Below are positions 6,332 through 32,720 of a stretch of DNA of 37,790 nt, in pieces; positions within the stretch are counted from its first letter, which is position 1, and every line of letters begins with the position of its first letter. The notes beneath the pieces were generated by a model. It did not search any database. It was given only the letters and a program-made list of their open reading frames with translations, and was not told the origin of the DNA. This DNA is from Candidatus Helarchaeota ASGARD archaeon Hel_GB_B (lineage in GTDB: Archaea; Asgardarchaeota; Lokiarchaeia; Helarchaeales; HEL-GB-B). The stretch covers positions 1 to 37,790 of the forward strand of contig SUPR01000027.1 in the NCBI GenBank assembly GCA_005191425.1, written 5' to 3'. A program made the translations under genes and the position numbers.

Positions 6332-8062
6332 ATGTTTAAAATTCGGTGGTATAAAATCGAACTAGATGGCATTCTTGAAGATCTAAGAAAAGATGACCTC
6401 CAGAAAATAGAGGAGGCAACAAAAAAATTATTAGATTTAGATAAAGAAGATTTTGAAAATTATGGTTTTGATGATGCTATCAATAAGATCTTTGAAATTA
6501 TAGAATTATTTGAAGATATTGAATCAAAAAGACCGGAATTTTGGAAAAGGCTTAAAGATAAAAAAAAGATAGAGAAATGGGATAAAATAATAGAAAATAT
6601 TCGAGATAAATTGCGCGACCTTGATTTAACTTCTTATGATTTAAATGATAAGGGAATTGAAGCTCAAGATAAAGATGATGATGACCGGGCTTTAATTTAT
6701 TATAAACAAGCAGTATTATTAGACCCAAATTATCGGTGGAGTTGGTACAACCTTGGTAATGTATATCGAAATAAAGATAATAATGAAAAAGCAATAGAAT
6801 GTTATAAAAAAGCGGTGAAAATTTACCCTGACTATGGAGATGCTTGGAACAATATGGGTAATGCATATAGCGATTTAGATAAATTAAATGATGCATTAGA
6901 AGTCTATGAAAAAGCTGCAAGTATTGAGTCATATGAAAATAGGAATTTTCCGATATATAATATAGGGCTTATTTATGAAAAAAAAGGCGATAAACATAAA
7001 GCATTAGAGTATTTTAAAAAAGCATTGGAAGTTAAAGGAGACTATGCTAAAGCCCAGTATAATGCTGGTAGAATTTTATATGAGATGGGAAATATTTTAG
7101 AGGCCCAAAAATATTTTACTTTAGCATTAACGAATGATTTTGAAAATTATTATAAAGATATTGCTGAATTTAATATAAATGTATATAATTTACTTGCTAA
7201 ACATTTAATTAACGATTTTATTGATTTCAAGAACTTAAATGTTGACATTATCCAAAAAGATGTCAAAGAGATAATTAAAAATATTTTTTCAAGGAATTAT
7301 TTTGGCGAAAAAGAAATCAATTTTTTATTAAATGATCCAGAATATATTAAAAATTGGAAAAAAAGCTTTACCACAGGGAAAGCTGAAATTATTGAAAATT
7401 TTATAAATAATTGTCTTGCTTCTATTTTTATTAGTAAGGATGAAGATCTTTTAAATGGTTGGATAAATGAAGATATTAGTAAAATGTTAAATAATAATGA
7501 AATTGATTATGAGTTTTTAAGAATAGAACTGATCTTAAAATTCATTAATAATTTTCCTGGAGATGAATTATCTCAAAATATTAGAGATAAATTAAATTCT
7601 GTAATTATTGAGAGTTATGATTATTTTAAAAAGACATTTAGACTTATCCGGAATTATATTTTATCTCATAATATTAATTCAGCTGAAGAATATATTGATA
7701 AATTTTTAGATCAAATAGAAAATGAAGAGATAAAGACAAAATATAGGAAGGAATATGTAGCAACAACTATAAAAATTTCTGAATTTTTAAGAGATTACGC
7801 ATTAATCAATAATAATTTACTCTTTATAAATTTAAATGAAAAAATAATTTTGTGGTTATTGGAGAATTTAGATAATAGAGATGCTTCAATTGAAGTTGCA
7901 TTTTTTTTATTAGAATCGGTCGACTTATTTTATAAGAATAAAAAATTTGAGACCAGTTTAAAATGCGCAATAAAAGCAAAAGAATTTTTTAACAAGTTGG
8001 AATTTATTAAGGATTCTCAAAAAGTCGAAAAAATTATTAAAAAAATTGAGATATTAAATTAA
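6332..8062 (+). CDS. TPR repeat protein
   Basis: Consecutive TPR motifs: ALIYYKQAVLLDPNYRWSWYNLGNVYRNKDNNEKAIECYKKAVKIYPDYGDAWNNMGNAYSDLDKLNDALEVYEKAASI.. KHKALEYFKKALEVKGDYAKAQYNAGRILYEMGNILEAQKYFTLAL. Confidence 0.9.
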   Translation: MFKIRWYKIELDGILEDLRKDDLQKIEEATKKLLDLDKEDFENYGFDDAINKIFEIIELFEDIESKRPEFWKRLKDKKKIEKWDKIIENIRDKLRDLDLTSYDLNDKGIEAQDKDDDDRALIYYKQAVLLDPNYRWSWYNLGNVYRNKDNNEKAIECYKKAVKIYPDYGDAWNNMGNAYSDLDKLNDALEVYEKAASIESYENRNFPIYNIGLIYEKKGDKHKALEYFKKALEVKGDYAKAQYNAGRILYEMGNILEAQKYFTLALTNDFENYYKDIAEFNINVYNLLAKHLINDFIDFKNLNVDIIQKDVKEIIKNIFSRNYFGEKEINFLLNDPEYIKNWKKSFTTGKAEIIENFINNCLASIFISKDEDLLNGWINEDISKMLNNNEIDYEFLRIELILKFINNFPGDELSQNIRDKLNSVIIESYDYFKKTFRLIRNYILSHNINSAEEYIDKFLDQIENEEIKTKYRKEYVATTIKISEFLRDYALINNNLLFINLNEKIILWLLENLDNRDASIEVAFFLLESVDLFYKNKKFETSLKCAIKAKEFFNKLEFIKDSQKVEKIIKKIEILN

Positions 8063-8090: not shown

Positions 8091-10727
8091 ATGACTGATA
8101 AATGTAAGTATTTAGATGAAAAAGATATTTTGGGCGAAATCTTCTATTTATGTAACATCCAAAAAAAAGGTATTTCTACCGATTTTGTTTTGGAAACATG
8201 TTTATCTCCAAACTGGAAAGATTGCGAGTTTGTATTTAGTCCATCGAAATCGCATTTAAAAGGCAAATGGAAGGAAATAATTGGATTAGAGGATATCAAA
8301 AAAGAGCTCATCCAGAAGGTCCAACATCCCTTCATTTTATCTCAGATTAAAAATATGAAAATAGAACCAGTAAAAACGCTTATTCTTTTTGGTCCAGATG
8401 GGTGTGAAAAATTATCATTGGTCCATGCATTAGCTGAAGAGAGCCATGTTAATTTAGAGACTATTTCATTCAGACAAATTGAAGAATTGAACACAAAAAT
8501 TGATGAAATTGGAGAAAATGACCCGACTATTATTTTAATTGATGAGGTAGACCTAGTTGCACCACCAATAGAATCAAAACAAGTATATTTAGCAACATTT
8601 AGAATCCAAGATCCTATAATTATATTAATGTCTGCTATTCAGAAAATTAAATCTTCTAATAAACCTATATCCTTGATTATGATTACTGATAATCCTGATT
8701 TAGTTTCTCCATTAATTTTAAAACAGGAATATATTTCTGATATAATTTACGTTCATCCTCCAACGGAAAAAGATAGGAAGGAAATTTTAAAAAATTTATT
8801 ACAAAATAAACCGCTGGAGAAAAATATTGATTTTGATTTACTGGCCAAAAAAACATTTAATTTTTCGGTGCAGGACCTTAAAAAACTAGTTAGAATAACC
8901 GAATTAAAATGGGCTGAAGATTCTTATGAAAATGAGCGAAAAATTTCAATGGACGACATACTCAAGGCTCTAAAAGAAGTAATCCCCTCATTGACAAAAT
9001 CAATGATTAAAAAATTTGAGATAACTGCGATTCGTTATGGTGCAATGGAAAAAAGGTTTAGTAAAGAACGATTAACGTGGGATGATGTAGGAGGATATGA
9101 TTCTATTAAAAAGCAATTAAAAAATATTATTTCAATGTTAACATCAAGTGATATGTATAAAAAATATGATGTTAATGCACCAACAGGTGTGCTTTTATTT
9201 GGACCTCCTGGGTGTGGTAAAACTTATATTGCCAGAGTAATGGCTGATATTGCTAATGCTAATTTCATATATGCAAGCGCTCCTGATTTATTATCAAAAT
9301 GGTTGGGTGAAAGTGAACAAAAAATTCACGATTTATTTACAACCGCAAAATTAAACCCACCTACAATTCTCTTTTTTGATGAATTAGACGGAATTGCATT
9401 TGAAAGATCAAGAACAACTGATCATCCGTATTTGACGACTATATTGTCTACATTTCTATCTGAATTCTCTGATCTCCGTCCTGAAGACCATATTTTAGTA
9501 ATTGGAGCTACTAATAGAATTGAAGATATAGATCCAGCATTTCTTAGACCTGGACGTCTTGATGAGCGAATTGCAGTTCCACCACCAGATTTTAATGCAA
9601 GAAAAGAAATTTTTCAAATTTATTTAAGAAAAGTAGAATTGAGTGATGATGTTGATTTTGATTTTTTAGCAGAAAAAACTAAAAATTATACTGGAGCTGA
9701 AATCGCTTATATTTGTGATACCACTAAACGCAATAAAGCTTTTAAGGCTATTGAAAATGGCAAATATACTAAAATAAAAATGAAAGATATTTTAGAAGTT
9801 TTAGATTCAATTAAACCAGATCTATCATCTGAAGATATTGATGAATTTAATGAAATGATTGAAAAATTTGAACGCCGTGGTAAATTTTCCCCTGAAATAC
9901 TTCATGAGCCTATATACTGGAATGAAATTGGAGGTTTAAAAGAAGTTAAAGATTTTTTACAAAATCACGTTATACGGCCATTAATTAATTACAGAGATGC
10001 TCTGGAATTCGGTATTACACCAAAAAAAGGGATAATTATTTACGGTTTACCTGGAACTGGAAAAACATCAATAGCAAAAGCAATTACAACCGAATCCAAT
10101 GCAAATTTCTTTAGATTTTCAGCATTAGAATTATCTAATGTCTTTCTTTATAGAACTGATACACCAAAAAGTTTTAAAGATTTGATACGCGATGCCGAAA
10201 GAGTTGCACCTTCTATTATACTACTCGAAAATGTAGAAGCTATCGATTCATTTGAAATAGCCCTTTTTATTCAAAGTGAAATTGAAAAAATAAAAAAGGA
10301 AATTCCAATTTTAATTATATGTGAAACCAATAATTTTGAAGGAATACCTGAAATTTTAAAAGCAAGCAACCAAATTCAATATGTTGTTATTATAAATCCA
10401 CCTACTTTTGAAGAACGAATCGAAATTTTAAAAATTAAAACAAAAAATCTTATTCTTAAGGACGATTTTGACTTCAAATTTATTGCAAATAGAACTAATT
10501 ATTATACTGGTTCGGACCTTGATAAATTGATAAAAGAAGCTGCTCATATTGCCTTTACAAGGAAATTAAATAACAGTTCAAAAGATTCTGTTAAAATAAA
10601 CGAGGATGACTTTTTAAATGCAATGAAAATAGTCGAACCATCACTATCACAAAAGATAATCGATGAATTCAAAAATTCAATCGACAGAATCCAAAAAAAC
10701 AAAACTCGTATTGGTTATTATGGTTAA
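8091..10727 (+). CDS. Cdc48/p97-like AAA+ ATPase with three AAA modules
   Basis: Module 1: degenerate Walker A (LFGPDGCEKLSL) with Walker B IILIDEVD. Module 2: canonical GPPGCGKT, ILFFDELD, ATNRIEDIDPAFLRPGRLDERI. Module 3: GLPGTGKT with degenerate Walker B (IILLENVEAID). Confidence 0.9.
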   Translation: MTDKCKYLDEKDILGEIFYLCNIQKKGISTDFVLETCLSPNWKDCEFVFSPSKSHLKGKWKEIIGLEDIKKELIQKVQHPFILSQIKNMKIEPVKTLILFGPDGCEKLSLVHALAEESHVNLETISFRQIEELNTKIDEIGENDPTIILIDEVDLVAPPIESKQVYLATFRIQDPIIILMSAIQKIKSSNKPISLIMITDNPDLVSPLILKQEYISDIIYVHPPTEKDRKEILKNLLQNKPLEKNIDFDLLAKKTFNFSVQDLKKLVRITELKWAEDSYENERKISMDDILKALKEVIPSLTKSMIKKFEITAIRYGAMEKRFSKERLTWDDVGGYDSIKKQLKNIISMLTSSDMYKKYDVNAPTGVLLFGPPGCGKTYIARVMADIANANFIYASAPDLLSKWLGESEQKIHDLFTTAKLNPPTILFFDELDGIAFERSRTTDHPYLTTILSTFLSEFSDLRPEDHILVIGATNRIEDIDPAFLRPGRLDERIAVPPPDFNARKEIFQIYLRKVELSDDVDFDFLAEKTKNYTGAEIAYICDTTKRNKAFKAIENGKYTKIKMKDILEVLDSIKPDLSSEDIDEFNEMIEKFERRGKFSPEILHEPIYWNEIGGLKEVKDFLQNHVIRPLINYRDALEFGITPKKGIIIYGLPGTGKTSIAKAITTESNANFFRFSALELSNVFLYRTDTPKSFKDLIRDAERVAPSIILLENVEAIDSFEIALFIQSEIEKIKKEIPILIICETNNFEGIPEILKASNQIQYVVIINPPTFEERIEILKIKTKNLILKDDFDFKFIANRTNYYTGSDLDKLIKEAAHIAFTRKLNNSSKDSVKINEDDFLNAMKIVEPSLSQKIIDEFKNSIDRIQKNKTRIGYYG

Positions 10728-10840: not shown

Positions 10841-11461
10841 TTGGAAAACAATAATTTAAAAGGCGGAACTGAAAAAGAGGAAGAAAAAAATGAGCTTGTC
10901 AACTTCTTAAAAGATACTCGCGAGATTATTTTAAATGGTGTGCGAGATGCCTTTATTGATAGAAAAACTGATAATATTCAAAAACTCTACCAATTAGCAG
11001 CTAAAATCTCGGAAGAATTGGGTGATATCGAATCTAAGAAACGATTTGAAAACAGGTCAAAATTGTTTAATAGAAAAAATGCAAACGAAATTTTAGAAGA
11101 TATTGATTTAACCATTAAAAGCATCATTCAAATTATTAATTATGAATTTCAAGATAAAATTAAAAGGGTACTATACACTATAAATTTGCTAATAAATACT
11201 GCAAAAGAAATAGAAATCGCAGAAAAAACCTTTAGAAGGGCAAATGCCCAATTAAATTTCTCACTTATTCAATATATTCGAAAAATGCGGGCATTTAGAA
11301 ATGAATTATTTAGGTTAATACCTAAGGAATTAATACAAACATCCTTCGAAGAATGGGAAAATGAACATAAAAAAATAAAACTAAACCTTGAAAAATTAAA
11401 GGTAAAATTAGATCTTCTTATTTTAAAGTATAAAAAAGATTATAATGAAGAATTAATTTAG
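10841..11461 (+). CDS. Small helical/coiled-coil protein of unknown function (TTG start)
   Basis: 206-aa all-helical-looking sequence with coding-like composition, co-oriented downstream of the AAA+ gene. Confidence 0.65.
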   Translation: MENNNLKGGTEKEEEKNELVNFLKDTREIILNGVRDAFIDRKTDNIQKLYQLAAKISEELGDIESKKRFENRSKLFNRKNANEILEDIDLTIKSIIQIINYEFQDKIKRVLYTINLLINTAKEIEIAEKTFRRANAQLNFSLIQYIRKMRAFRNELFRLIPKELIQTSFEEWENEHKKIKLNLEKLKVKLDLLILKYKKDYNEELI

Positions 11462-14839: not shown

Positions 14840-17257
14840 ATGCTTTATAAGCGTCAGATATTAGGTACTAAGATTTCTACAAATCAAAATTTTATCAAAA
14901 CAATTTCGGTTTCTCCTGATGGTAGATATATTATATCTGGTCATTGGGATAATATTATCAAAATTTTTGATATACAAACATGCAGATGTACTAAAATTTT
15001 AGAAAATCATTCGGATTCAATATATTCTATTGCATTTTCTCCTGATAACAAATATTTTGCTTCAAGCTCTTTTGATAAAACAATTAAGATATGGGAATTG
15101 GAAACCGGTAAATGTATCAAAAATTTCAAAGGCCATAACGACTGCGTTAATTCTGTAATTTTTTCTCAAAATGGTAAATATCTTATCAGTGGCTCTAGAG
15201 ATAAAACTATAAAAATATGGAATATACAAACAGAAAATTGTATTAAAACATTAAAAGGGCATGTTGGTTCGGTTGAAATAATAATTATGACCCACGATGG
15301 TTCTAAAATAATCTCTGGTTCAACTGATGGTTCTATCCGGTTATGGAACTTTAAAAATGGTAAGTTAATTGGAACAATACATGATTTCGGCGTTATAATT
15401 TATTCATTAAAAATATCTTCTAATGGAAAATTTCTAATATCTAACTCATTAGATAATATAAAAATCTGGGATTTAGAAGAACTTGAGCTGATTTTTACAT
15501 TAGAACTACATAAAGGACAGATAAATTCATTCACTGTTACATCTGATGGTAAATATTTAATTTGTGGCACTGAAAATGGTCATATTGCTGTCTGGGATTT
15601 TAATAATAAAAATATAATTAATGAATTAGAAGTTAGTAATAGTATTGAAGTGATTGAATCAATTGATAACAAAACTTACAATATAATTTTAGATCAATGT
15701 TTCGCTCATTTAGATGAAAATGGAAATATAGTCCAATGGATTAAATTTAAAAATGATATCATTCAAAACTTTCCAATTTTCCACAAATTAGATTATGATG
15801 AATTTAATTCATTTCTATCTAATTTGACGCATTCTAAAATGTCCATAAATAAGTTAGCCGATGAAATCAAACTTGAAAGAGCCGATATAATAAATTTTAT
15901 TTCCTTCTTAGAAGATCATGAACTAATAAGTGGTCAAATTGATAAAGATAATAATTTTCTTTCTTATCTATATATTCAAGAATCAATTAAAGAAATTCTA
16001 AATTTATCAGGAAAAATTGAAATTGAGAAAATTACGCAAGTTATTGGTATTCCACAAGATATATTATTAAGAATTATGAAAAATATGATAAAAGAAAATG
16101 TATTAAATGGTTTTTTTAACGATCAAGAGTCAATTTTTACTACAAATGAAGAATTTATGTCTAATATTGTCCTTGAATTAAAAAAGAATAAAATTCTAAA
16201 CCTAACAAAATTATCTGATGAATTTGGAATTAATAAAGATTATATTTTGAAAATTATTGAAGACTTAAAACAAAGAGGCGATATTCCTCAAGTTAAAATT
16301 TCTGCTGATGTTGTTCAAGTCCTTGAAGAAGAAGTTTTACCACCAATTATAGAACTTAAGCCTGAAGAAATTGTTGAAATTCCTGAAATTAAAGAAATAA
16401 CTGAGCCAATCCATGAAAAAACTCAATCTAAAAAAGAGCTAAAAATTACTGCTAAAGAATCTAAAAAAAAGACAAAAGTTGATATTTATATAGAAGAAAT
16501 TAATGAAATATTTCTCAAATTAATAAAAATATTCGAAATCCTAGAAATACCTGCTTTTTACGAAGAAACTGAAAAGTTTTTTAACGAAATTTTTAACTTT
16601 AACAAATCTACATTAGAAAAATTTACAAATGAAAAGTTTATTTCCGTAATTACTAATTTTCAACAAATTATTAACGAAATTACTTCTAAACAAGATAAAA
16701 TTGAATCAATTCAATGTCATAATTTAGAATTTAAATTTATTTCAATTATTAAGGACTTTTTAAATTATAGTAATAAACAATTAAAAGAGATTATCAATAA
16801 TTTAAAGGAACCCAGTTTTTATAAAGTAATAAATGACGCATTTAATGAATTTGACTACCATTTTATTAAGCAAAATAACTTATATATTGAAAATATTCTT
16901 GATTCCATTATTTTAATTGATAAAAACAATACTATTTTGTTTGATTACAGATTTCGACCAACTTATGATCAAAATTTAACTGAAAAAATATTAGATTTAA
17001 TCAAAAATAAAGAGAAAAATTTAATTCACGAAGAATTTGAAATTTTTGAATTAAAATCTGATACTATCTTTTGTTATCTAAAGAAAATCAATGATATTCA
17101 ATTATTATTAATAACAACTGGACAATTTATACCAAATTACCTCAGTTATATTAATGATCTTGCTTCTGATATTAAAGCAGAATTTAGAGACCTCTCAAAC
17201 TCCGGTAAACAGAAAATAAAAAGTATCATAAAATCCAAATTCTTTTTTAACCTTTAA
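14840..17257 (+). CDS. WD40 beta-propeller protein with winged-helix-like repeats and C-terminal longin/roadblock-like region
   Basis: At least six WD40 repeats (e.g. GHNDCVNSVIFSQNGKYLISGSRDKTIKIWNIQT). Then repeated helical units (LTKLSDEFGINKDYILKIIEDLKQRGDI). C-terminus (ILDSIILIDKNNTILFDYRF...FCYLKKINDIQLLLITTGQ) looks like a small alpha/beta regulatory domain. Confidence 0.88.
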   Translation: MLYKRQILGTKISTNQNFIKTISVSPDGRYIISGHWDNIIKIFDIQTCRCTKILENHSDSIYSIAFSPDNKYFASSSFDKTIKIWELETGKCIKNFKGHNDCVNSVIFSQNGKYLISGSRDKTIKIWNIQTENCIKTLKGHVGSVEIIIMTHDGSKIISGSTDGSIRLWNFKNGKLIGTIHDFGVIIYSLKISSNGKFLISNSLDNIKIWDLEELELIFTLELHKGQINSFTVTSDGKYLICGTENGHIAVWDFNNKNIINELEVSNSIEVIESIDNKTYNIILDQCFAHLDENGNIVQWIKFKNDIIQNFPIFHKLDYDEFNSFLSNLTHSKMSINKLADEIKLERADIINFISFLEDHELISGQIDKDNNFLSYLYIQESIKEILNLSGKIEIEKITQVIGIPQDILLRIMKNMIKENVLNGFFNDQESIFTTNEEFMSNIVLELKKNKILNLTKLSDEFGINKDYILKIIEDLKQRGDIPQVKISADVVQVLEEEVLPPIIELKPEEIVEIPEIKEITEPIHEKTQSKKELKITAKESKKKTKVDIYIEEINEIFLKLIKIFEILEIPAFYEETEKFFNEIFNFNKSTLEKFTNEKFISVITNFQQIINEITSKQDKIESIQCHNLEFKFISIIKDFLNYSNKQLKEIINNLKEPSFYKVINDAFNEFDYHFIKQNNLYIENILDSIILIDKNNTILFDYRFRPTYDQNLTEKILDLIKNKEKNLIHEEFEIFELKSDTIFCYLKKINDIQLLLITTGQFIPNYLSYINDLASDIKAEFRDLSNSGKQKIKSIIKSKFFFNL

Positions 17258-20292: not shown

Positions 20293-22914
20293 TTATAAAT
20301 TATCATTTTCAAATTTTTTAAAATGATTTTTTCCTTTAATTTTTTTCGTTCTTAGATGGTTATAAAAAGTGTGGTATCTTCTTTTATACCAATTTTCAAT
20401 TTCATTTATATCTTCATTTGATAACTGATATAATTTATATACAAGATAATCTATTTTTGTTTGTTCATAAATAAAATATGGATATTTTTGGTCATCATGC
20501 TGCTTTTGAATGATTTTGTTGACCAAATCTTCAATCTGATACATTATAGATTTATTATCTTTGTCTATTAAAGGGATTGGAATTTGTTTAATTCCACCAA
20601 CTTGCGTGTGAACAGTTGAATTAATATAATTTTTTAAAAGATATTTCACAAGTTTTGAACATAAAATACCTAAACAAAATTCTAAACTATAAAATTCTGT
20701 GAAAATTGTCATTCCCATTACATCAAAAACTGAAGAGTGGTTTAATCTAAAGGTCGGGGCGTAAAATCCAGTATCTGAATAGGTAATTCCTTTTTTAAAA
20801 TAATATTTAAAATTTTGAAGTCTTGAAGCTATTTTATTAGAGGAAAACAATTCAATCTTGTCTTTTTTACCATAATATCTTTCTCGGTCTATTATTGTTA
20901 AATTTTTTAATCTATTTATTGCTTCTTTTGACCAATTAATATAATAGTTTGTTGGTACCCAATAATTTGGAAGCCACCCCTCTTTGATATTTGATTCAGC
21001 ACCTTTATCATATGGAATGTATTTTTTACCACCATAATCATTGTCATCAATTCCCAATATATCTCCAGTCTTTTCATAATATCGTCTATATTTTTTAGAG
21101 AACTCTATCAATTGTTCTCCATTTAAAATTAATTTCTTATCTACGACCTTATAATTTCCATAAACTTTTTCATTACTTTTTCTAATATAATATTTATTAT
21201 CTCCTGTCCCTAATCCTTGTTTTATTATTGATATATCTCCAAATTTTAATAAATTTAAGCGATTTCCATTAAAGATTATTTTATATATTAACAATGATTT
21301 ATTTTTAGATGGAAATGAATGTTTATCACATTCTTGGTCATTCATAAGGGAAAAAATTTTGGGGCTGGCAATAATTATTGGAATTTTCGAATATTTTAAT
21401 AATATTTTTTGCTGGTATTTATAAAAACCCACATTTGTTTTTAAAAAGTTACCATCTAGCCTATCAAAAATTAGTTTACCAAGGATATCTATTAAAATAT
21501 TTTTATTTTTAACTGGAATCCCTGTCAAATCAATTGCTTGAACATCTGAATTTAATCTTAAAAATCTGTTTTTATCACCTGGTAAACTTTTCAGGATAAA
21601 TATCGAAGTGTTTACGGTAGCTTCAAATAACCAAATTGGGAGTGATACAATAAAAATTAATCCACAAGAATTTAAAACTCTCCTTCTTAAAGGTAAATGG
21701 CTCTCAATAGTACGCCAAGTATCACTCGTAAGAAAGGATAAATAACCATTCACTTTTAGAAATTCTAATGATTTGACTATAAAAGCTCCATAAAGATCCA
21801 TACTCATTAATCCAAGCTTTTTTGCAGTTTCTTTAGAAATGCCTCTTCCTCTTGCTGCATAAGGTGGATTTCCAATTATAATATCAAATTTAAATGAGAT
21901 ATTCGAATTATTTATTTTTAAAAAATCAGATCTTAGAAAGTTAAATTTCAAATTTCTAAACTTTAAGTTTCTACTACTTATAAAAAATGGTAGTAATATC
22001 ATTAAAGCTGCAATATCCATTGCCTCTTTTTCTATATCAATGCCATATAGAGATTCGTTTATAATTTTAAATTTTATGCGTAATAATTCATTTTTATCAA
22101 TATTATTTGAATTCATAATTATCTTTTTACAATTTAACAAAATTAATGTAATATCTTCTAGAATTGAAATTAAAAAAGTGCCAGTTCCCATTGCTGGGTC
22201 TAAAACTTTAAAATTATCAAATATCTTTATAATTTTTAAAGCATTTTCTTTATTAATAGTAGAGACATTAACATTTATGTCTTTTGAAAATAAAATTTTT
22301 ATGTCCTCTTTTTCTATGCCTAATTTCTCTTCAATATACCTAATTAATACTTTCTTGGTCAGAAAGTTTGCAATAAATTTATTTGTATAATAAATCCCAA
22401 ATCTTTTTTTCTCCGAACCTTTGTATAATTCATAAATATAACTAAAAATATCTGTACCAATTTTATATTCCTCAAAAATAAAGAATTCCGTAGAAATTTT
22501 ATTTCTGGAAAAAAAGTTTAAAACAGAATTCTTCTTATTTGGGTCAAAAATTTCGTTGGGTATAAAAATATTATTAATAATTTTCCATTCTTCTGGTGTA
22601 AAATCGTCAAATCTTAAATCTATTTGATTGAAAAATTTGATATTTGACCATTCTTCTGAAAAATTATCTAAAAATCTTCTCAAAAATAAATCAAAATAAT
22701 TTCCATTATTTTTATTTACCTTAAATCTTTCAAATATGTCAGAAAAGTGTTCTTTTATTATTTTTCTATCCTTAATGAAATAATATAATGTAATTTTAAA
22801 TAATAGATCTTTTACAAACTTTAAAATCAATTTCTTATTAGATAAATTTGGGTTATACTTTATTATATTTCTTACAATATTATTGTATAGGATTTTAATT
22901 TCTTTATTTGTCAT
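20293..22914 (-). CDS. Eco57I/type IIG-like N6-adenine DNA methyltransferase
   Basis: GIYYTNKFIANFLTKKVL (motif X-like), DPAMGTGTFLISILEDI (motif I), FDIIIGNPPYAARGRGISKETAKKLG (motif IV NPPY), long C-terminal target-recognition-like region. Confidence 0.88.
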   Translation of the reverse strand: MTNKEIKILYNNIVRNIIKYNPNLSNKKLILKFVKDLLFKITLYYFIKDRKIIKEHFSDIFERFKVNKNNGNYFDLFLRRFLDNFSEEWSNIKFFNQIDLRFDDFTPEEWKIINNIFIPNEIFDPNKKNSVLNFFSRNKISTEFFIFEEYKIGTDIFSYIYELYKGSEKKRFGIYYTNKFIANFLTKKVLIRYIEEKLGIEKEDIKILFSKDINVNVSTINKENALKIIKIFDNFKVLDPAMGTGTFLISILEDITLILLNCKKIIMNSNNIDKNELLRIKFKIINESLYGIDIEKEAMDIAALMILLPFFISSRNLKFRNLKFNFLRSDFLKINNSNISFKFDIIIGNPPYAARGRGISKETAKKLGLMSMDLYGAFIVKSLEFLKVNGYLSFLTSDTWRTIESHLPLRRRVLNSCGLIFIVSLPIWLFEATVNTSIFILKSLPGDKNRFLRLNSDVQAIDLTGIPVKNKNILIDILGKLIFDRLDGNFLKTNVGFYKYQQKILLKYSKIPIIIASPKIFSLMNDQECDKHSFPSKNKSLLIYKIIFNGNRLNLLKFGDISIIKQGLGTGDNKYYIRKSNEKVYGNYKVVDKKLILNGEQLIEFSKKYRRYYEKTGDILGIDDNDYGGKKYIPYDKGAESNIKEGWLPNYWVPTNYYINWSKEAINRLKNLTIIDRERYYGKKDKIELFSSNKIASRLQNFKYYFKKGITYSDTGFYAPTFRLNHSSVFDVMGMTIFTEFYSLEFCLGILCSKLVKYLLKNYINSTVHTQVGGIKQIPIPLIDKDNKSIMYQIEDLVNKIIQKQHDDQKYPYFIYEQTKIDYLVYKLYQLSNEDINEIENWYKRRYHTFYNHLRTKKIKGKNHFKKFENDNL

Positions 22915-30007: not shown

Positions 30008-31456
30008 GTGAAAAATAAAACGATAGAACCGTCAATACCTAACGAAATTCTAAAAGCACTTGAGCAGAATGGTTTTACTTTATTGATTAAAGGCGATGCT
30101 GGTACTGGAAAAACTACTTTAAGCCTAGAGATATTAAAATTTGCAAAATCTAAAATTTATATTAGTTCTAGAATATCTCCTACAATGATTAAAAAGCAAT
30201 TTCCATGGTTAGAAAATGAAGACATTATTTTTATTGATGCAACACAAACCTTTTTTCAAGAAGACAGTATAACAACCCAAATTGAGCGTGCAATAAAATT
30301 TAGGGAAATGCCTGGTTTTTTACAAAAGTTATACGAAATTGTTAAAAATAAAGATTCCTCTACCATAGTAGTAATAGATTCTTGGGATGCGATTTACAAT
30401 AGTATTTTAGAAGAGTCATTAGAATCTAAAAGAATTGAAACAGTTCTTACTGAAATGGTTCGGTTTTTAAAATTCAATTTAATATTAATCACTGAATCCA
30501 ATCAAACTTCACTAGATTATATTTCTGATGGTGTTGTAGAATTAAAAAGTGAAATTATTTGTAATAGAAGTAAAAGAGTTATAAAAATAAAAAAGATGAG
30601 AGGAATTGAAATTACACAACCTGAATATCTTTTTTCATTACACCAATCCAGGTTTAAGCATTTTCAGAGAATGATGGAATTTATTCCTCTTAAAAAGTTA
30701 AACAATAAACCTCCTTTAATCAAAAATACTAAAAATAAATTATTAAGTTATTCAGAGTCATTAAACAATTTTTTCAATTATGGGTTAAAAAGGGGCACTA
30801 TTAGTTTACTTGAAATTAGTGAGGATGTTGGGTTCGATTATATTTGGGTCCTAATTCCAATAATGATTAATCAGTTGCAACAAAATCACGGGATTACTTT
30901 AATCCCAGATGAAGGATTAGATTTTAAAGTTATATATAATGTACTTTCCAGATATATATCTCAAGATATTCTCGAAAAATATTTAACATTTTTTGATTTT
31001 TCTCCTACCTATACTGAACCTAATGAATTTATCAAATTAATAAGAATACTTGACTATAAAAAAGATATTGAGCATATTTATAACGATATTAAAGAGGACA
31101 TGATAAAAAAGATAACTGAACGACAGAACCTTTCACAAGACCAAATTTATGGTGGTACTGCCTTTTTTGGTAGTAATAGATTCGAAAATCGGTTCGGAAT
31201 CGAAAATATAAAGAAATATCTTATAGTAATTGGTGAATTTATTAAATTATTTAAAACTAGCAGGATGGTCTATATATCTTATTTTAATCAAAAAATCCGA
31301 GAGATTATTTCTCCAATGGTCTCCACTCATTTTAAAATTGAAAAAATTTGTAATGTCATGGTAATCTATGGAGAACGTCCGTTCGCTAATATGCATGTAA
31401 TTATAATAAATTTTGATAAAGGTTATCCGGAAATTAATTTATATCCCATAGTCTGA
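30008..31456 (+). CDS. RecA-fold/KaiC-like (GvpD-like) ATPase
   Basis: Walker A KGDAGTGKTTLSLEILKFA; Walker B-like STIVVIDSWDAI; GTG start. Confidence 0.75.
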   Translation: MKNKTIEPSIPNEILKALEQNGFTLLIKGDAGTGKTTLSLEILKFAKSKIYISSRISPTMIKKQFPWLENEDIIFIDATQTFFQEDSITTQIERAIKFREMPGFLQKLYEIVKNKDSSTIVVIDSWDAIYNSILEESLESKRIETVLTEMVRFLKFNLILITESNQTSLDYISDGVVELKSEIICNRSKRVIKIKKMRGIEITQPEYLFSLHQSRFKHFQRMMEFIPLKKLNNKPPLIKNTKNKLLSYSESLNNFFNYGLKRGTISLLEISEDVGFDYIWVLIPIMINQLQQNHGITLIPDEGLDFKVIYNVLSRYISQDILEKYLTFFDFSPTYTEPNEFIKLIRILDYKKDIEHIYNDIKEDMIKKITERQNLSQDQIYGGTAFFGSNRFENRFGIENIKKYLIVIGEFIKLFKTSRMVYISYFNQKIREIISPMVSTHFKIEKICNVMVIYGERPFANMHVIIINFDKGYPEINLYPIV

Positions 31457-31496: not shown

Positions 31497-32720
31497 ATGA
31501 ACATCTTTATTTTTGAGTACTTAACTGGTGGCGGATTTATTAATGATAAGCTACCACCATCTCTTGTATGTGAAGGCGCAGCAATGCTTTTAACATTGAT
31601 AAAAGGGTTAAACCCCGATTTTGATGTTAAAATTTTATTAGACTACCGATTAGCCGGGTATAAGGAGTTTTTTAAAAACATTTCCCCTAAAATAATTAAG
31701 AATACAAGCGATTTCAATGAGAATTTCAAAGATTATATTAATAATTCTGATTATTATCTCATAATAGCGCCTGAGTTTAATAATATATTAAGAGATTTAA
31801 CTCTAGAAGCTGAAAATAGTAGCGCAATTAATTTAGGATGTAATTCATATTCTATTGAAAAAACTGGAAATAAATTTGAGACTTTTAAAAAATTATTTCA
31901 TTTAAAAAAGTATTTGCCGGCTACTCTAAAAGCAAATCATAGCAATGCTAAAATTAGCGAAATTTATAAATTTTGTAAAGATTTAGGCTATCCTGTAGTT
32001 TTTAAGCCAATTGATGGCGTAGGTGGAGGTGGGATCAGTCTAATTAGGAATAAAGATGAAATAAATCCAGGAATTAAAAAAATTAAAATCAATTCCAATG
32101 AAAATGAATTTATTATCCAAGAATATATTAAAGGAAATGATGTCAGTGTATCTCTTTTTATTGATAATAATGTAATCCATCCTTTAACTTTAAATGGACA
32201 GCTTATAACTTTAGGTGATATAACAAATGAAACGAAATATAACGGTGGTTATATTCCATTCAATAATCGGGATTTTAACCATGATGATATTTTTAAAATT
32301 GCGATTGATTGTGTGTCTTCGATTACCGGATTAAATGGATATGTTGGAATCGATTTTGTAATAGGTGAAAAACCATCTATCATTGAAATAAACCCAAGAT
32401 TGACTACTTCCTATATTGGTGTTAGAGAACTCCTTAAATCTGACTTATATACTCAAAAAATTATTGGTACAATCATAAAGCCAGAGATTGATACTCATAA
32501 GAACGTATATTTTACAAGATTAGAACTTAGAAATGTACATCACCGTATAATAGAAAAATCTGAATTTAATAAGTTAATTCTTTCTAATTTGATAACGCCA
32601 TTTTTTAAATTTAAGGATAATTATTCTGGATTTATACTTTTAAAATCAAAATCTTTTAAAAAGAACCTAAAGAAATTAACTAGGATAAAAAATTTTATTT
32701 TAAAAAACAAAATTAATTAA
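31497..32720 (+). CDS. ATP-grasp ligase (MfnD/COG1821-like)
   Basis: N-term MNIFIFEYLTGGGF; GYPVVFKPIDGVGGGGI; EFIIQEYIKGNDVSVSLFI; GYVGIDFVIGEKPSIIEINPRLTTSYIG. Confidence 0.8.
   Translation: MNIFIFEYLTGGGFINDKLPPSLVCEGAAMLLTLIKGLNPDFDVKILLDYRLAGYKEFFKNISPKIIKNTSDFNENFKDYINNSDYYLIIAPEFNNILRDLTLEAENSSAINLGCNSYSIEKTGNKFETFKKLFHLKKYLPATLKANHSNAKISEIYKFCKDLGYPVVFKPIDGVGGGGISLIRNKDEINPGIKKIKINSNENEFIIQEYIKGNDVSVSLFIDNNVIHPLTLNGQLITLGDITNETKYNGGYIPFNNRDFNHDDIFKIAIDCVSSITGLNGYVGIDFVIGEKPSIIEINPRLTTSYIGVRELLKSDLYTQKIIGTIIKPEIDTHKNVYFTRLELRNVHHRIIEKSEFNKLILSNLITPFFKFKDNYSGFILLKSKSFKKNLKKLTRIKNFILKNKIN

Follow-up and report, generated by a model that had tools for sequence, protein, structure and literature searches.

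Three- and four-module AAA proteins of Asgard archaea with intact middle modules between degenerate ends

Dynein and midasin carry more than two AAA modules per chain, with active and inactive modules mixed and set side by side in one ring. Tandem AAA proteins of the Cdc48 family, by comparison, are double-ring proteins, generally of one type in prokaryotes according to a survey of 3,911 family sequences (PMC5070193), and the archaeal representative, Cdc48/VAT, carries an HbYX-type C-terminal tail (PMC5070193). Termini of this kind, as defined in the source followed here, are found on 0.93% of archaeal proteins (PMC11475706). The proteasomal ATPase PAN depends on its arginine fingers to relay the ATP signal to the HbYX motif or to expose it (PMC4608255). 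Another arrangement is found in NSF: D1 hydrolyses ATP, D2 is degenerate and serves nucleotide-dependent hexamerisation, and SNAP acts as a separate adaptor (PMC5070193).

The locus and its three AAA modules

The window, that is, the whole stretch of 37,790 nucleotides analysed here, lies on contig C104 of a 3.54-Mb assembly from the Helarchaeales (Asgard). The features listed here are all on the forward strand.

6332-8062, +, TPR protein fused to a family-specific helical partner region (about 7247-8059), ending 28 bases upstream of the AAA gene
8091-10727, +, three-module AAA gene, 878 aa, one ATG open reading frame with PF00004 in three stretches
8091-8255, +, N-terminal Cys4 module (C5, C21, C37, C45), family-specific, 55 residues
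8256-9029, +, module 1, a degenerate AAA module by profile (E 2.3e-27) and motif state
8391-8414, +, module 1 Walker A position, GPDGCEKL; Lys kept, Gly to Glu, Thr to Leu
8529-8552, +, module 1 Walker B, IILIDEVD; Asp and Glu kept
9066-9860, +, module 2, an intact AAA module and putative motor, by profile and motif state (all ten middle modules have every motif)
9201-9224, +, module 2 Walker A, GPPGCGKT
9366-9389, +, module 2 Walker B, ILFFDELD
9540-9566, +, module 2 arginine fingers, FLRPGRLDE; no other such motif in the protein
9906-10682, +, module 3 (last), P-loop intact and hydrolysis machinery gone, by profile and motif state
10044-10067, +, module 3 Walker A, GLPGTGKT
10215-10238, +, module 3 Walker B position, IILLENVE; Asp to Glu, catalytic Glu to Asn
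10716-10724, +, C-terminal Tyr-Tyr-Gly, a predicted HbYX-type 20S proteasome docking tripeptide
10841-11461, +, 206-aa protein with no Pfam match

The AAA family profile PF00004 matches the 878-aa protein significantly over each of its three modules, in separate stretches (E 1.6e-67). Domain limits were set by a profile built only from intact middle modules, which placed module 1 at residues 56-313 (E 2.3e-27), module 2 at residues 326-590 (E 1.1e-143), and module 3 at residues 606-864 (E 2.5e-35). Since the middle-module profile recovers it, module 1 is AAA by homology. Both profiles bear out the three modules proposed in a sequence-only reading of this DNA, and the prospect raised there that module 1 might not have an AAA fold did not materialise: an AAA-like order of strands and helices is seen in all three modules of the predicted full-length structure as well, a low-confidence model (mean pLDDT 56, from a two-sequence alignment) that carries no information on stacking. 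Both this model and that of the TPR-partner protein rest on shallow alignments. The closest solved structures to the AAA protein are archaeal and eukaryotic Cdc48/p97. A promoter scan gave a signal no better than shuffled sequence.

Module 2 is as intact as it first appeared, with the sensor-1 Asn, RPGR, and an aromatic pore loop (KWLGE) alongside its Walker motifs. Module 1 retains IDEVD, as had been noted, but the reported loss of both Lys and Thr from its Walker A holds only for the Thr; the alignment shows the Lys in place in each of the seven homologues, so that its loss is rejected. The sensor-1 Asn of module 1 has given way to Asp, LKQEY replaces the arginine-finger loop, and pore loop 1 is absent. 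In module 3 the P-loop is indeed accompanied by replaced Walker B acids, and the pore loops are divergent. The decay of the two end modules had been described as complementary. It is not simply so, because arginine fingers are missing from both. The accompanying picture of one hydrolysing, one dead, and one binding-only ring is partly supported: the pattern is conserved, but module 1 is better called degenerate than plainly nucleotide-free, as it keeps the Lys and usually the Asp-Glu pair.

Only 55 residues precede module 1, in agreement with the earlier remark that a Cdc48 N-domain is absent. The four cysteines of this stretch, spaced C-x15-C-x15-C-x7-C in the window protein, are invariant in six complete homologues, and a profile of the module matches only the same 6 of 231 Asgard genomes as the AAA family. 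The stretch possibly binds a metal or an Fe-S cluster. No Pfam family matched it above cut-off, and a PDB profile search returned antibody noise only. Below the cut-off, it weakly resembles the Cys-rich D27-like C-terminal domain (PF13225, E 4.5e-4).

Distribution and history of the family

When 231 genomes of the Asgard phylum were searched with a profile covering the N-terminus and module 1, seven strong matches came up in six genomes (E 5e-80 or better); the next match was an ordinary Cdc48 at 1.9e-38. The members are the window gene, another copy, 71% identical to it, on contig C69 of this assembly, and homologues in G003, G182, G178, G180, and G181. The G003 homologue, 50% identical, comes from the same order as the window genome, and its contig is identical with that of Candidatus Helarchaeota LW55_61, the nearest named relative. 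The other four genomes are outside the window genome's class, and the seven proteins together span four Asgard families. The G182 homologue has three modules, while those of G178, G180, and G181 have four, the middle one being doubled; the G178 sequence is cut at its start.

L070:8265-11771, L071:7846-11367, L072:4511-7888, four-module AAA proteins (1125-1173 aa) in which degenerate ends flank two intact middle modules

The motif states are shared throughout this set. First modules keep the Walker A Lys and the Walker B Glu in 7 of 7 cases, the Ser/Thr in 2 of 7, and the sensor-1 Asn and arginine fingers in none. Every motif is present in the ten middle modules, whose aromatic pore loop (KWLGE/KWYGE) has Trp in eight and Phe in two. 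Last modules invariably have a P-loop, never the catalytic Glu (0/7), and in no case both arginine fingers together (0/7). The exception is module 1 of G003, where the Walker A looks intact (GPDGCGKS), and this counts against a uniformly "dead" module 1. By comparison, two-module Cdc48 proteins of the same phylum have Walker A, Walker B, and arginine fingers intact in both modules in 34 of 34 cases. Close homologues with intact motifs would have pointed to sequencing error, but the close homologues show the same decay. Sequencing error is rejected because the pattern recurs in six other sequences, and chance is rejected on the same recurrence taken together with the 34 intact Cdc48 proteins.

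Scans of viral and plasmid sequences found only ordinary AAA proteins, judged by identity. Literature searches returned no description of a three- or four-module Cdc48-like protein, which is weak evidence of absence; as far as the literature searched shows, the family may be previously undescribed.

In a tree of 101 modules, built with FastTree only, the first, middle, and last modules each form one clade across the members (support 0.999-1.0). In the four-module proteins the paired middle modules join each other with weak support (0.54-0.63), next to the one middle module of the remaining members. It is most likely, on this phylogeny, that the first/middle/last layout was already in place in the common ancestor and that the four-module form arose by copying the motor. 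Because each module class is monophyletic and the middle module was copied, the decay of the end modules appears to be old and to have been kept while motors multiplied. The tree gave no resolution of where the module clades lie relative to Cdc48 D1/D2 and Vps4.

Although G182 does not belong to the class of the window genome, the modules of its protein (L073) fall with those of the Helarchaeales and apart from the four-module proteins. Transfer from one Asgard lineage to another may explain this, as may differential loss. G182 was missing from the results of an EF-2 search intended for a species tree.

The second copy in the window's own assembly belongs to a like cluster of TPR-partner, AAA, and small-protein genes (C69:1230-5587, locus L075) on a 6.2-kb contig, whose flanks show no match to those of the window. 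It may be a paralogous or duplicated operon, or a contig from another organism, the assembly contamination being 4.93%. Between the two copies, dN for modules 1, 2, and 3 is 0.19, 0.15, and 0.21 against dS of 1.5, 1.0, and 1.6, the latter near saturation, so the ratios are rough. Comparison of the coding sequences indicates that all three modules, both ends included, are under purifying selection. The 206-aa protein downstream of the window AAA gene has its homologue downstream of the C69 copy (51% identity over 152 aa). The case for relating it to a 79-aa ORF next to the four-module genes is unconvincing.

The linked partner, the proteasome link, and proposed mechanisms

The partner region that is fused to a TPR protein in the window is a free-standing protein in G003 and G182, encoded immediately upstream of the AAA gene. 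In G180 and G181 it lies one small ORF further upstream, and the G178 contig ends before its position could be seen. Where the two genes are directly adjacent, the gap is 12-47 bases. TPR genes adjoin in G003, G180, and G181. Across the 231 genomes, strong matches to a partner profile (E 1e-91 or better) occur only in genomes of the AAA family, together with three weak ones, each under 60 residues, in other genomes; as the profile was derived from the AAA loci, it is the lack of strong matches elsewhere that carries information. The TPR-partner protein is modelled as all helical (pLDDT 72.5). A PDB profile search with the partner gave coiled-coil noise only.

Further from the AAA locus, the window encodes an 805-aa WD40-repeat beta-propeller protein with eukaryote-like Pfam matches (14840-17257), an Eco57I-type restriction-modification methylase of 873 aa (20293-22914, reverse strand), and a GvpD/KaiC-like P-loop ATPase of 482 aa (30008-31456) that adjoins an ATP-grasp protein (31497-32720).

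All seven members end in hydrophobic-Tyr-X, compared with 7 of 350 local ORFs, and the Tyr column is invariant. The tripeptides themselves differ (YYG, YYA, PYS, FYG, and three LYS), with that of G003, PYS, placing Pro at the hydrophobic position. The tails amount to about four independent ones, so that the arguments from both partner and tail stand on about four independent lineages, and a motif of three residues limits the weight that can be put on docking. The host 20S proteasome is present, with PF00227 found in all six genomes; the genes looked at around the AAA loci include no proteasome subunit. A single-module AAA protein on contig C29 of the same genome also ends in such a tripeptide, FYS.

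The best interpretation of these sequences is a putative stacked-ring AAA machine that probably feeds the proteasome. The account that we prefer, and to which we give about even credence, is a Cdc48-related unfoldase of three (or four) stacked homotypic rings, each presumably hexameric, with the motor or motors in the middle and the last ring docked on the 20S particle. Walker site and arginine finger occur together only in the middle module, for which reason homotypic stacked rings seem the better interpretation; a side-by-side, dynein-like ring is disfavoured because the module 2 site would need a finger from module 1 or 3, neither of which has any. The first ring would form a structural entrance beneath the Cys4 N-termini and, with the TPR protein and helical partner, would receive or select substrate. 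It could not hydrolyse ATP efficiently, given the absent arginine finger, the lost sensor-1 Asn, and a mostly decayed Walker A. The middle ring or rings would hydrolyse ATP and thread the substrate by means of the aromatic pore loop. In the last ring, the intact P-loop would hold ATP and, as the catalytic Glu and arginine fingers are lost, hydrolysis would not follow, leaving this ring a static role in assembly. Through its HbYX tails the stack would attach to the 20S proteasome, where the threaded chain would be degraded; since the last module has no arginine fingers, the attachment would need to be either constitutive or under the control of the middle ring. A more specific proposal is offered tentatively, as possible rather than likely: that these three- and four-ring stacks, with an inert ring at the entrance, an ATP-locked ring for docking, the motors in between, and a TPR/helical partner of their own, are an extra gatekeeper of the 20S proteasome.

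The last module is in the same state as NSF D2, and a TPR/helical partner is genetically linked, both of which would suit an NSF-like disassembly machine. Here the motor ring would act on complexes whose components are recycled, the last ring would bind ATP for the sake of the hexamer, the TPR/helical protein would serve as the SNAP, and the C-terminal Tyr would be kept for some reason other than proteasome docking. NSF, however, has no third ring and is argued to have lost the handover of substrate to the proteasome (PMC5070193), while the HbYX terminus is kept here in all seven proteins. Moreover, the partner folds like generic TPR proteins, with no SNAP among the 50 matches listed in its fold search. 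We consider this explanation unlikely.

Less probable still is a regulatory scaffold, in which the end modules are platforms for TPR and partner proteins and remodelling proceeds without threading through all the rings. Conservation of end modules without catalysis is what such a scaffold would lead one to expect, as are the missing pore loop 1 of module 1 and the divergent pore loops of module 3. That said, a canonical aromatic pore loop is retained in every middle module (8 Trp and 2 Phe of 10), and the type II AAA protein Rix7, one ring of which has no aromatic pore motif, still engages substrate along its whole channel (PMC6355894). Neutral decay of a duplicated Cdc48-like gene, losing two modules with no special mechanism, could account for the variation of the decayed sites between members (EKL, MKT, EKR, GKA; ENVE, ERAE, QNLE, DDLE), but is already disfavoured and very improbable, as the end modules, kept at full length in seven proteins that represent four Asgard families, are under purifying selection, have invariant residues of their own, among them GPDGC and LKQ-Y (module 1) and VAPS and CET (last module), and persisted while the middle module was duplicated.

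Under the preferred stacked-ring unfoldase reading, a conserved Asgard family would show that the number of AAA rings can grow and that end rings can turn passive. Asgard archaea are the closest known relatives of eukaryotes, and the family may represent a further proteasome cap. It would also allow, in a natural system, the pulling ring of a stack to be told apart from rings that serve only for holding or docking.

Comparison with known AAA systems

The mixture of active and inactive modules recalls dynein and midasin, but here arginine fingers occur only in modules with an intact site, and the modules number three or four. Divergent type II AAA proteins such as Pex1/Pex6 and Yta7/ATAD2 likewise have a divergent first or second module within a working machine (PMC5070193); they differ in being eukaryotic, with two modules and other accessory domains. 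With PAN and PAN-2, the proteins described here would share HbYX docking on the 20S proteasome. Those ATPases have a single AAA module and an OB/coiled-coil N-terminus, and they dock through a catalytically active ring.

NSF is the best functional parallel for a motor ring joined to a nucleotide-binding ring (PMC5070193). A motor followed by a non-hydrolysing, degenerate last module fits in kind, as does a helical adaptor. The family lacks the NSF N-domain and has a third module, and the N-terminus, the HbYX tail, and a partner with TPR-like matches only set the family further apart.

The nearest likeness is to Cdc48/VAT and p97, the classic type II AAA proteins, which share tandem classic modules and an HbYX-type tail and include the best solved-structure relatives. 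They differ in having two modules, where there are three or four here with inactive ends and clades of their own, and in the double-psi N-domain, in place of which lies the Cys4 stretch, with no N-domain among the Pfam families shown. Instead of two modules with both active sites intact, the window protein has three with one intact. The CDC48 family model (TIGR01243, cut-off 802.65) scores it at 461.9, the G182 homologue at 476.5, and the four-module G180 protein at 648.2. With a score below cut-off, the wrong number of modules, and no N-domain, the window protein is best regarded, on its sequence, as related to the CDC48 family but outside it, a member of the tandem classic-AAA kind.
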